Made by a program: the position numbers and the translations under genes. A stretch of 64,000 bases of DNA from Sphingobacteriaceae bacterium (GTDB lineage Bacteria; Bacteroidota; Bacteroidia; B-17B0; Aurantibacillaceae), in assembly GCA_002319075.1 (NCBI GenBank), contig NVQB01000001.1, positions 372,001 to 436,000 of the forward strand. The letters are read 5' to 3'. Under the pieces are notes generated by a model that was given only the letters and a program-made list of their open reading frames with translations, was not told the origin of the DNA and did no database searches. Within the stretch, counting starts at the first letter, position 1. Each line of letters begins with the position of its first letter. Shown one piece after another: positions 6,968 through 11,101 of this stretch.

Positions 6968-8023
6968 ATGAAAAAACTATATACCACACAAGAATATAAA
7001 GATTGGCATAAAAAAAAGCTAAAGAAGATTCAAATCGAACTCAAAAGCAAGAATTATGCTCCTATCAAAAGAAAGAAATCAATAGGTTACCAACGACAAG
7101 CGGAGCCAGTTCCGCTGATAGCACCAAGAGACTTTAGGCTTTTAACAAACACTGAACAATGTTTAGGTTTTTTTAGGGATGTGAGGGATGAAAAAAATCA
7201 AGTTTTAATTAAGAACATACGGTTTTTAGTTATATCCATGAGTGATATAGAGCATATTGATTATGCTACAATTAGTGTTTTAAGTGCTATATGTGAAGAT
7301 TTTACATTTAGAAATATCGCTATGCGTGGCTTACTGCCTCGAAACCCAGCCTGTAAAAAAATCATTGTAGATTCGGGTTTTTTGAATCGCATGTATGATG
7401 ATAATCAAAGGAAATTCACCAAATTTACTCCCTCAGATGTTTTCGTATTTGAGAAAGGTGGTGATAAATTCACTGACTCAGATAATATTCGGATAGGAGA
7501 ACTTATTAAAGAAGTGTCAAAACATCTCACGGGCGTAGGTAGACATTTTAATCCAGTAAAAACAATTTTACTTGAAATTTGCGGTAATGCAATTGAGCAC
7601 TCAGATTCTCTATGTAAGCAATGGCTGCTCGGAGTAATGTATGAAAAAGATAAGGTGGTCTTTACCGTTACTGATGTAGGCCGGGGCATTTTGGAAACTT
7701 TATATAGAAAGCCTTTAGCCGGAATCAAAGATATGTTTACGTTAAAGGAAAAGCACGAGATACTTAATGGTGCATTTGAGCAGAAATATGGGTCCAGGAC
7801 GAGGGAAATAAATCGTAATAAAGGTCTTCCTGCTGTTAAGTACAATTCGGAAATGGGTTATATTCTTAATTTGATTGTTGTCACTAATAATGTAATTTTG
7901 TACTTTGGTGAGGATAGTGAATCATCAACATTTTTGAGGGGCGCACCGAGATTGAAAGGAACATTCTATCAATGGGAAGTTACAAAGGAATGTATTGATA
8001 AAGTTATAGTAAAAAAATCATGA
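6968..8023 (+). CDS. STAS-like/HATPase two-domain protein (anti-sigma-kinase-like)
   Basis: A 351-residue soluble protein with no signal peptide. Residues about 65-145 look like a STAS domain (alternating strands and helices, IDYATISVLSAICEDF, then GLLP.N and DSGFLN). Residues about 175-345 form a GHKL ATPase: N-box Glu203/Asn207 in LLEICGNAIEHS, G1 box Asp236-Gly238-Gly240 in VTDVGRGI, and a G2-like NKGLPAV (285-291). There is no dimerisation/phospho-His domain, so it resembles SpoIIAB/RsbW-type protein kinases joined to their STAS partner. Its stop overlaps the start of the DUF4325 gene by 4 bases. First gene of a three-gene unit; biological role unknown. Confidence 0.75.
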   Translation: MKKLYTTQEYKDWHKKKLKKIQIELKSKNYAPIKRKKSIGYQRQAEPVPLIAPRDFRLLTNTEQCLGFFRDVRDEKNQVLIKNIRFLVISMSDIEHIDYATISVLSAICEDFTFRNIAMRGLLPRNPACKKIIVDSGFLNRMYDDNQRKFTKFTPSDVFVFEKGGDKFTDSDNIRIGELIKEVSKHLTGVGRHFNPVKTILLEICGNAIEHSDSLCKQWLLGVMYEKDKVVFTVTDVGRGILETLYRKPLAGIKDMFTLKEKHEILNGAFEQKYGSRTREINRNKGLPAVKYNSEMGYILNLIVVTNNVILYFGEDSESSTFLRGAPRLKGTFYQWEVTKECIDKVIVKKS

Positions 8024-8451
8024 AGATAATTAGCATACTTAATAATTATTCAGAATATCCGGGTTTGAGGAATTGCAATATCAGTGAACATTCTGGCGAA
8101 GAATTTTACCATGTTGTTTTAAACAAGGAGTTTAAAGATAGCTTTGAAAAAAGCGAAACGGTGCAAATTAACTTGGATGGTACAGGAGGTTACGCATCTT
8201 CATTTTTAGATGAAGCCTTCGGTAATCTTGTATATGATTTTTCGTTAGAGAATGTGAAAAAATATGTTGAAATTATATCAGAGGAAGAGCCACATTGGAA
8301 GGAAATGATAGAAACGCAAACGTTTAAAGAATGGGAGAGAAGGCGATTAGAAAAGGAAAGTCCTAAAGTAACAATTAAACATGCTCCGTGGTTTAGAATG
8401 ATTGATAAAACTATTCAAGAGAAAGTATGGGAATTGCCTGCTGTTGTGTAG
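8020..8451 (+). CDS. STAS-like DUF4325 protein
   Basis: A 143-residue cytoplasmic protein. The INLDGTGGYASSFLDEAFG segment (about 50-68) is the hallmark of the DUF4325 STAS-like family (a strand, then S-F-x-D-E-A-F-G at a helix start). The C-terminal third is charged and helical and is not covered by the family core. Its ATG lies inside the end of the upstream STAS/HATPase gene (ATGA overlap), so the two are made together. By analogy with SpoIIAA/RsbV it may be the phosphorylation or binding target of the HATPase, but that is inference. Confidence 0.75.
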   Translation: MKIISILNNYSEYPGLRNCNISEHSGEEFYHVVLNKEFKDSFEKSETVQINLDGTGGYASSFLDEAFGNLVYDFSLENVKKYVEIISEEEPHWKEMIETQTFKEWERRRLEKESPKVTIKHAPWFRMIDKTIQEKVWELPAVV

Positions 8452-8989: not shown

Positions 8990-9020
8990 GATTTTACTTT
9001 CACCTATGAAAAGCAAAATC
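8990..9020. terminator. Hairpin between convergent genes
   Basis: An imperfect inverted repeat (GATTTTaCTTTc ... gAAAAGcAAAATC) lies exactly between the end of the membrane-protein gene and the end of the convergent MNT-HEPN gene. It lacks a clean T-run, so termination is inferred from position and symmetry. Confidence 0.35.
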
Positions 9021-9886
9021 TATTCAGTAAAACTCTGAATCTTCCCCTTACAAATCTCCTCCGTCATCGTGCGCAGCAATTGCACCCGTTCACTCAAATA
9101 CTCCAGGTCTTCTTTAGAGATCTTATAATCCATATTGTAACGGGCATCTACGTAAGCTTTCTTTAAAAGATCAAAGCGCTGGCGTTCTTCGGCCGAGGCT
9201 TGCGGGAACACTTTACCAAACTCCATGTTGCAGGCTTTGGCAAGATTGCCGAGTTCTTCAATGTTATGTGTTTTGGGTTTGTAGCCGGTAAACACTAACT
9301 GAATGGCGCCGTAGTAACGTTCAGTTGCCTGATGTAATTGAAAGGCTGCATTTTTTAATTGTGCATGTTGCATTGAAAATTCATAGTGCATAAAAAACTC
9401 ATTCGCGCTCTCAAACCAATTATCAAAATCACGCTGTGCTTTTGCCTGTACTTCTGCAGGGCTCATGTCGCGCTTGTCTTCAAGGGTATAACGGTTGCTA
9501 GTAAACAGCTGGATGCCTTCTTTCTTAATGTCTCCAAAAAAGTAAGAACCTTCGCGCAACTCGTTGTTTACAAATTCCATCCCATGATAAATAGGATGCA
9601 CTGGTGTAGCCAGCTTTAATTCGTTTAATCTGTTGCTAATTCCCGACGTAACACTATCGCTATTCGCATGGCCATTCTTACTTAAGATGATGAGCAGATC
9701 GTAATCGCTTTTGTACTCGTAAGTATTGCCCTTCTCCATGTATTTATCTTCCACCCAGGTGCCACGTGCATAGCTCCCAAATAAAATGATCATCTCAATC
9801 TCCGCAAACCTTGGGATCAAAGCCGCCACTATGGCCTTTAATTCGGCTTGCTTGTGATCGGGCAGAAAAGAGAGGATGGTTTTCAT
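9020..9886 (-). CDS. Fused nucleotidyltransferase-HEPN protein (MNT-HEPN)
   Basis: A 288-residue protein. Residues about 15-110 are a minimal nucleotidyltransferase domain with GSYARGTW (37-44) and the catalytic Asp pair in SDYDLLI (Asp61/Asp63). Residues about 150-280 form a HEPN domain (AAFQLHQATERYYGA, then THNIEEL and DARYNMDY). In the known two-gene HEPN/MNT toxin-antitoxin systems, the MNT antitoxin AMPylates and silences the HEPN RNase; here both are one polypeptide, a fusion also common in Bacteroidota. I do not see a clean R-x4-6-H RNase motif in this HEPN half, so it may not be an active nuclease. Confidence 0.85.
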   Translation of the reverse strand: MKTILSFLPDHKQAELKAIVAALIPRFAEIEMIILFGSYARGTWVEDKYMEKGNTYEYKSDYDLLIILSKNGHANSDSVTSGISNRLNELKLATPVHPIYHGMEFVNNELREGSYFFGDIKKEGIQLFTSNRYTLEDKRDMSPAEVQAKAQRDFDNWFESANEFFMHYEFSMQHAQLKNAAFQLHQATERYYGAIQLVFTGYKPKTHNIEELGNLAKACNMEFGKVFPQASAEERQRFDLLKKAYVDARYNMDYKISKEDLEYLSERVQLLRTMTEEICKGKIQSFTE

Positions 9887-10134
9887 AACTTTAGTCCTGA
9901 AGTGAACTTATTCTACTTCAATAGAGTTAAAGATAATGGTTTTTAAGACGACGAAATTTTCACGCTGAAAAACGTGTTAACAATCCAATCAACAAAAATT
10001 TCACCTAATTTTGCATGCCTAGCAGTTTCTTTCAGTTGGTACGTATTTAACTGATAATCATAAAATTAACTGGTAAATACTCATAACTTGCGCTTATTTA
10101 ACTTTCACAATTACACAATTGTACAATAATGTAA

Positions 10135-10142
10135 TACATTTG
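10135..10142 (+). promoter_or_regulatory. Bacteroidota -7 promoter element before the Abi_2 gene
   Basis: TACATTTG fits TAnnTTTG exactly. A TTG occurs at 10119-10121, closer than the usual -33 spacing, and palindromes ACAATTGT (10115-10122) and TTGTACAA (10119-10126) overlap it, so an operator is possible. Predicted transcription start is about 10147-10150. Confidence 0.5.
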
Positions 10143-10152
10143 TATTAACCAA

Positions 10153-10199
10153 ACCCCTCACGCCTCTGATTCAAGCGCACTTTGAGGGGTCTTTTTTTT
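10153..10199 (+). terminator. Intrinsic terminator directly upstream of the Abi_2 start codon
   Basis: ACCCCTCA (10153-10160) pairs perfectly with TGAGGGGT (10183-10190). The 22-base loop holds a further CGC/GCG pairing, and eight T residues follow (10192-10199). It lies between divergent genes, so it cannot end any neighbouring CDS. It must terminate a short RNA or attenuate the Abi_2 gene. Confidence 0.8.
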
Positions 10200-10207
10200 C
10201 CCTTTTT

Positions 10208-11101
10208 ATGAAATTCGACAAACCGCCTCAAACCCATGAGGAGCACTATCATCTTTTAATTAAGAGAGGCTTAAAAATTGATGATGAGGCAAGGTTTTAT
10301 AAGTATACCAAAACAATAGGTTATTATCGTCTTACTGGATATATGTATCCCTTTCAATCAAACGACGGTTCTCATAATTTTAAAACTCCGGTTAGCTTCG
10401 ACACTGTATTAGAACATTATTTATTTGACAAAAAGTTAAAGCTGATTCTATTGCACGAAATTGAAAGAATTGAAATTTCTTTCAGGGCAATTATTTGTAA
10501 CACGTATGCTTTGAAGTATGGTTCGCACTGGTATTTAGACGATTCTTATTTTAACGATAAAGCTATTTTTTATAAAATAATTGAAGATGTAAAAAAATAT
10601 TCTACAGACACTAGTGATCTGTTTATTAAAAATTATAATAGCAAGTATACAGACCCAGCTTTACCTGCATCGTGGATGGTATTTGAAATTTTCACCTTTG
10701 GTCAAACCGCAAGTATTTTTGAAAACCTAAAAGATACCGGCGAAAAAAAAGCGATTGCTGCCGAATACGGCACTGTTGTGCCTATACTGGAATCGTGGTT
10801 TAAGAGTATTAATTTCATAAGGAATTGCTGCGCGCATCATTCAAGATTATGGAACAGGAAAATTCCAATTAAGCCAATGATTCCTGAAAGAAAAAACAAA
10901 AGATTTCTAACTCATATAGATGCCGAAACGAATAAAAGAATTTACGGGGTGCTCTCATGCATGCTCTTTCTGAATAAGCAAATTAGCCCCAAGTCTAAAT
11001 TTAAAGAAAGAATTAAAAATTTGTTTGTGGAGTATCCCAGCGTAAATAAAGAGTACATGGGCTTTCATGCTGATTGGGAGAAAGAAGAGTTGTGGACTTA
11101 G
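10208..11101 (+). CDS. Abi_2 family (AbiD/AbiF-like) HEPN abortive-infection protein
   Basis: A 297-residue protein of the Abi_2 family. It has the family start (PPQTHEEHYHLLIKRGL), the GYYRLTGYMYPF segment (38-49), an ERIEISFRA helix, and the HEPN ribonuclease motif R-N-C-C-A-H (Arg205-His210) within IRNCCAHHSRLWNR. Members are phage-exclusion or toxin-like HEPN RNases; AbiF-type proteins are considered close relatives of the ancestors of Cas13. The ATG is preceded by CCTTTTT rather than a ribosome-binding site, and a terminator ends 8 bp upstream. Expression therefore probably depends on readthrough or is tied to the short upstream RNA. No phage protection can be shown from sequence. Confidence 0.85.
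   Translation: MKFDKPPQTHEEHYHLLIKRGLKIDDEARFYKYTKTIGYYRLTGYMYPFQSNDGSHNFKTPVSFDTVLEHYLFDKKLKLILLHEIERIEISFRAIICNTYALKYGSHWYLDDSYFNDKAIFYKIIEDVKKYSTDTSDLFIKNYNSKYTDPALPASWMVFEIFTFGQTASIFENLKDTGEKKAIAAEYGTVVPILESWFKSINFIRNCCAHHSRLWNRKIPIKPMIPERKNKRFLTHIDAETNKRIYGVLSCMLFLNKQISPKSKFKERIKNLFVEYPSVNKEYMGFHADWEKEELWT

Follow-up and report, generated by a model that had tools for sequence, protein, structure and literature searches.

A divergent abiF RNA that apparently doubles as a terminator ahead of an AbiF/AbiD-type gene in a Sphingobacteriaceae bacterium

The primary paper on the abiF RNA motif reportedly dates from 2017, and a further primary paper on AbiF is said to have appeared in 2025, in Cell. 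One described system of this kind is RCd22-AbiFCd, carried by the prophage phi027 of Clostridioides difficile. According to the account in PMC12373285, an abiF-motif RNA with its own promoter and a terminator lies there ahead of abiF, which is reached by read-through, and the Abi_2 protein so encoded has a conserved R/H pair. The RNA is reported to work at two levels: termination lowers abiF expression 17-fold, and RCd22 neutralises AbiFCd in trans by direct binding (PMC12373285). In that account, RCd22 is about 100-130 nt long; it contains the abiF motif twice, and its terminator is a hairpin of its own.

Other points of comparison come from PbAbiF (PDB 8vz6), from AbiD1, and from type III systems of the ToxIN kind. 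PbAbiF is described as binding one RNA per monomer (review PMC12737573), and changing its R210/H215 pair is reported to have inactivated it (PMC12373285). For AbiD1 of Lactococcus lactis pIL105, PMC2661086 describes a transcript of 50 nt that starts at the abiD1 promoter and stops at a terminator directly in front of the gene, and a rare read-through mRNA. There, removal of the terminator stem gave no rise in a reporter, and its authors assign the stem no major regulatory role (PMC2661086). In ToxIN-like type III systems, an antitoxin RNA likewise precedes the toxin gene, with a terminator between them, as set out in PMC12373285.

The locus reported here lies in a 64-kb stretch of DNA from a Sphingobacteriaceae bacterium; this whole stretch is called the window, and positions are counted within it. 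Two genes diverge, one at 9020-9886 on the minus strand and an Abi_2 gene at 10208-11101 on the plus strand, and the gap between them holds a unit of promoter, hairpin and U-run (10135-10199). On the plus strand, this unit begins with a -7 promoter box, TACATTTG, at 10135-10142, which fits TAnnTTTG. The box is enclosed by an inverted repeat, TAATAC/GTATTA, of 6+6 bp (10132-10147, without strand). Next on the plus strand comes a predicted RNA of the abiF type, about 50 nt long (10149-10199), with ends inferred and a position given by matches to two covariance models, RF03085 and our R2. Folding and covariation support two stems in it. The outer stem, P1, pairs ACCCCUC with GAGGGGU (10153-10159 with 10184-10190), and the inner stem, P2, pairs CGC with GCG (10161-10163 with 10175-10177).

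The same hairpin carries a run of eight T residues (10192-10199, plus strand), read as the tail of an intrinsic terminator. The hairpin ends (10190) 17 nt before the Abi_2 ATG (10208), and the T-run stops 8 nt before it. An earlier note on this DNA had pointed to the -7 box, and to a hairpin with eight T residues ending 8 nt before that ATG in a divergent intergenic region; the sequence confirms both. Transcription starts a few bases past a -7 box, so the RNA would be about 50 nt long. The layout is like that of RCd22-AbiFCd, from which the predicted RNA differs in its single motif, in a stem that would itself serve as terminator, and in a length of about 50 nt in place of 100-130.

The Abi_2 gene encodes a protein of 297 amino acids that is of the AbiF/AbiD type. 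It matches PF07751 (Abi_2) at 6.2e-52 (177 bits; cut-off 25.6), and matches AbiD of PADLOC at 3.2e-71; NCBIfam, searched at 0.001, gave no match to it. In the PDB, one sequence matched, the “Abi family protein” 8vz6 (E 2.6e-55, residues 3-296). The HEPN motif RNCCAH of the window protein aligns with RNSCCH of 8vz6, and R205 and H210 therefore occupy the places of R210 and H215 in PbAbiF. The homology to PbAbiF extends over nearly the full length of the protein. The divergent neighbour at 9020-9886 (minus) combines nucleotidyltransferase (Polbeta) and HEPN parts in one protein, and resembles a fused HEPN-MNT pair. Elsewhere in the window, at 6968-8451 (plus), two adjoining STAS-like proteins match PF01740, just below its cut-off, and then DUF4325 (PF14213).

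The stretch from 10144 to 10207 folds at -14.6 kcal/mol (z -2.64), a value equalled by 2 of 200 shuffles. In a permissive scan of 1.3 kb, the abiF RNA model RF03085 matches 10154-10190 (plus) with 30.8 bits and an E value of 0.0031. All 37 model positions are matched, with no broken pairs, and the consensus P1, P2 and conserved loop letters are present. The search with an abiF covariance model that the earlier note had proposed does find its match, though below the gathering score of 37 bits. Such a score is a limit that curators set for searches rather than a property of the RNA's biology, and the shortfall is why we call the hairpin a divergent abiF RNA. At gathering scores, no Rfam family was reached anywhere in the 64 kb. 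The hairpin is the only RF03085 match in the genome up to E 10, among the 150 of 1951 candidates that were scored. It is absent from the output of a consensus terminator scan, which was restricted to loops of 3-8 nt.

Relatives supply the comparison. In a search of relatives, 3 of 60 genomes (the source genome counted) have Abi_2, as do 48 of 395 genomes of a phylum sample. A query of genome contigs with the single protein gave 37 pattern matches and no confirmed one; a query with an alignment succeeded. In the flanks inspected in both sets, a hairpin with a T-run lies ahead of most Abi_2 genes. An alignment of 17 such RNAs, the window's included (A2, made by MAFFT alone), has 10 pairs, with 99.4% of its 169 cells paired and 6 pairs changed on both sides. 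Its covariation score is 0.485, against 0.211 when shuffled and at most 0.146 when slid, and RNAalifold returns the same structure. Seven hairpins (L015, L026, L027, L029, L031, L032 and L035) were chosen by eye in preference to the script's top-ranked hairpin, which may bias the counts. In A2, the window RNA aligns with those of L024, L030 and L034, whose scores exceed the Rfam cut-off.

A covariance model built from these 17 RNAs, R1, has matches upstream of Abi_2 in 35 of 46 sources, a figure that includes the 17 on which it was trained. Upstream matches are missing in the other 11 (L002, L025, L039 and L040-L047). The comparison was then extended to 80 independent named Abi_2 loci, drawn from several phyla. 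In 78 of them, an R1 match on the same strand ends no more than 150 nt upstream, and in 74 of these it reaches E <= 0.01. The two exceptions are L173, where R1 finds nothing, and L176, where its match follows the gene match at a distance of 85 nt. Loci on viral contigs have an R1 match at E <= 0.001 in 33 of 80 cases, wherever it lies relative to the gene. At L138:49-303, three tandem abiF RNA matches precede the Abi_2 gene, an arrangement that recalls the repeated units of type III antitoxins. CRISPR-like repeats with a period of about 66 (L031:2776-3537), which match RF01322 at a score under its cut-off, adjoin an Abi_2 gene with its abiF RNA.

The window itself can be left out of the model. 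R2 was built without it, from 43 matches at 42 of the 80 independent loci (alignment A6). In A6, 99.5% of 426 cells pair and 7 of 10 pairs are changed on both sides, figures favoured by the fitting of A6 to the R1 structure and possibly biased by the choice of its loci for score and spread. The covariation score of A6, 0.398, exceeds those of its shuffled (0.137) and slid versions (0.109 at most). Applied to the window, R2 gives 53.7 bits (E 9.2e-13) at 10149-10197, the sole match up to E 10 in the 64 kb; genome-wide, the next-best match has 23.2 bits, among the 150 of 804 candidates that were scored. The genomes of L102, L107, L116 and L120 have one R2 match each at E <= 0.01.

The proteins closest to the window's Abi_2 are those of L270 (60% identity) and L102. 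In both, P1 differs from the window's at two neighbouring pairs, with both sides changed in each; the loop of L270 is identical to the window's, and that of L102 differs by one letter. Across the alignments, too, the stem covaries while the loop letters stay constant. These results strongly favour the short RNA of about 50 nt that the earlier note had proposed. That note would have given up its proposal if homologous loci lacked the hairpin, and 78 of 80 carry one.

The promoter box recurs as well. TAnnTTTG stands no more than 44 nt ahead of the stem in 31 of 39 independent loci, taken as Bacteroidota by their record titles, a choice that may bias the count; after mononucleotide shuffling, the box turned up in 1.4 loci on average and in 6 at most. 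Of 32 boxes in these loci, 30 start 17-19 nt ahead of the stem, and the window's starts 18 nt ahead. The exact box is present in 10 of 36 sample loci, at 17-19 nt in all 10. The box counts take in L025, whose hairpin was found by script and has no R1 match, and this too may bias them. Relatives also have T-rich tails 3' of P1. The inverted repeat at the promoter, to which the earlier note had also drawn attention, is complete in the window, at 6 of 6 positions of its arms, but is not shared by relatives; at least 5 positions occur elsewhere only in L180 (5 of 6). As a shared operator it finds no support, being peculiar to the window among the loci compared, and it is probably incidental.

What might such a unit do? 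We consider it very probable that the locus is a minimal pair of AbiF toxin and RNA antitoxin, in which one hairpin attenuates the gene and silences the protein. Here, the promoter at the 10135-10142 box would give an RNA that folds as a single abiF hairpin. Because the stem and the U-run have the observed anatomy of an intrinsic terminator, most transcripts would be expected to stop ahead of the toxin gene. Read-through would deliver AbiF, which 8vz6 and the account in PMC12373285 suggest to be a dimeric HEPN RNase. The abundant short RNA would hold AbiF inactive through its conserved unpaired letters and P2, if RCd22/AbiFCd and PbAbiF are a guide. By the example of type III systems, a fall in the supply of RNA, for instance when a phage shuts down host transcription, would free AbiF, which would then cleave RNA and arrest growth. 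As a conjecture, AbiF sitting on the leader hairpin of the read-through mRNA might also block its own translation. Counting against this reading as a whole are the RF03085 score under its cut-off, the single motif (set against two in RCd22 and repeats in type III systems), the reporter result for abiD1, and the occurrence of Abi_2 genes and abiF RNAs without each other.

The anatomy just before the ATG is, of course, also what would be expected if the hairpin did nothing beyond limiting read-through, with no action in trans on the protein, and RCd22 is itself reported to work in cis via termination (PMC12373285). The same source has RCd22 active in trans, however, and the most conserved parts of the RNA are its loop letters and P2, which termination does not need. 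An unpaired U and C follow P2 in 43 of 43 sequences; dispensable for termination, they argue for protein binding. An attenuator pure and simple is therefore unlikely. On the analogy of RCd22/AbiFCd, the two roles that the earlier note offered as alternatives, “antitoxin or attenuator”, are best combined.

Further from the evidence is a long structured leader RNA that starts near 10.0 kb and governs the gene. The earlier note had raised such a longer RNA, citing further dyads upstream, and several imperfect dyads can indeed be found at 10043-10135. Yet the stretch 10000-10145 folds no better than chance (z +0.99, with 171 of 200 shuffles equally good), and the unit common to relatives begins at the -7 box. 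We hold the upstream dyads to be without support as a structure, and the long leader to be very improbable. An ordinary terminator or chance hairpin, unrelated to the gene, might be argued from the failure of any Rfam family to pass its cut-off in the window. This is scarcely credible against the RF03085 and R2 scores, the covariation of the stem, and conservation at 78 of 80 independent loci.

The pairing of RNA and gene is not universal. R1 matches at E <= 0.01 occur in 66 of the 395 genomes, some without an intact Abi_2 beside them. In 22 such places that were examined, R2 recovers the RNA at all 22, and 8 have no Abi_2 match whatever. Six others (L082, L084, L092, L099-L101) have Abi_2 matches only within the RNA or up to 25 nt beyond it; these are not Abi_2 remnants but artefacts, due to query frames whose starts lay upstream of the genes. 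The remaining 8 hold remnants, ambiguous pieces or contig ends. Strong abiF RNAs without an Abi_2 match are those of L083, L086, L087, L089, L090, L095, L097 and L098, with L082 also listed.

Several of these RNAs stand ahead of other genes. At L095 the gene is an N6/N4 DNA methylase, by Pfam, and L090 and L097 look alike by eye; at L086 it is DarT with a macro-domain protein, and at L089 an AAA_21 ATPase with RloB. L083 has two tandem abiF RNAs ahead of a type I restriction HsdR. In homologues of this hsdR locus, L008/L266, L274 and L278, an Abi_2 gene with its RNA immediately precedes the type I restriction gene, Abi_2 standing between RNA and hsdR; with Abi_2 in that place in these loci, L083 has apparently lost the toxin and kept the RNA.

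The source genome itself carries a second Abi_2 gene, L002, with no match to the RNA upstream. Just downstream of it, on the opposite strand (L002:2386-2447, minus), an abiF-like hairpin can be seen by eye (AAGCCUA, an inner hairpin, GCGCUCAAA), to which R2 gives 9.2 bits (E 0.28) with its filters off. The absence of an upstream RNA at L002, together with abiF RNAs that have no Abi_2, means that the pairing of RNA and gene is not obligatory.

Six Abi_2 proteins, L040-L044 and L265, form one divergent clade (SH-aLRT 100, in a quick tree with midpoint root), and all six lack the upstream abiF hairpin. Downstream of each, on the same strand, lie a TAnnTTTG box and two hairpins, the one of the form GUG...GCAC and the other, a putative terminator, with a T-run after it (for example L042:2281-2392, plus). 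For every one of the six predicted RNAs, at least 197 of 200 shuffles folded less well, and none of the RNAs reaches an Rfam family at gathering scores. Possibly, this downstream RNA is a different or relocated RNA antitoxin.

These observations permit a broader reading, which we regard as possible but doubtful: the hairpin would be antitoxin, terminator and translation operator in one, under feedback from AbiF, and also a portable element placed ahead of other defence genes. Here, AbiF bound to the nascent or leader RNA would tune both read-through and translation, and its feedback would set the ratio of toxin to antitoxin without tandem repeats. Ahead of HsdR, methylase, DarT and AAA_21/RloB, the RNA might control or guard the operon.

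On the reading that we prefer, of a minimal AbiF toxin with its RNA antitoxin, the locus can be placed among the described systems. As in type III systems, a terminator, here predicted from the hairpin and eight T residues, stands between RNA and toxin gene, and the RNA would, to go by what is reported for RCd22/AbiFCd (PMC12373285), neutralise the toxin by direct binding. Type III systems of the ToxIN kind are described as having a toxin of another fold and an RNA repeated in tandem, with pseudoknots, whereas the window has a HEPN protein and a single hairpin. No tandem antitoxin repeats were found, R2 matching once in the 64 kb, and this makes the locus an AbiF module that would work like type III rather than a classical type III system. 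AbiD1, as described, differs in a second stem over the ribosome site and in a phage protein reported to raise translation (PMC2661086).

The locus, with its divergent abiF RNA ahead of an AbiF/AbiD gene, clearly extends an already known class of system by one example and does not define a class of its own. Among the papers listed in our literature searches, we recognised no other description of the merging of motif and terminator, of abiF RNAs without Abi_2, or of the downstream RNAs. Such variants may already be catalogued, since PMC12804078 cites 2025 work with covariance models for AbiF RNAs.

The comparison says something about the family as a whole. The Rfam cut-off is passed by 3 of 33 scanned Abi_2 loci, against an upstream R1 match in 35 of 46 sources; abiF RNAs beside Abi_2 genes of Bacteroidota are much commoner than that cut-off suggests. 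To judge by their sequences, the antitoxin hairpin and the terminator of the toxin gene look like one element in this set. Proteins of the AbiD/F type have been proposed as ancestors of Cas13 (PMC12165695, PMC12373285). With such an ancestry, a single self-terminating antitoxin hairpin would plausibly show what an early guide-like RNA looked like, an idea that is easily testable.
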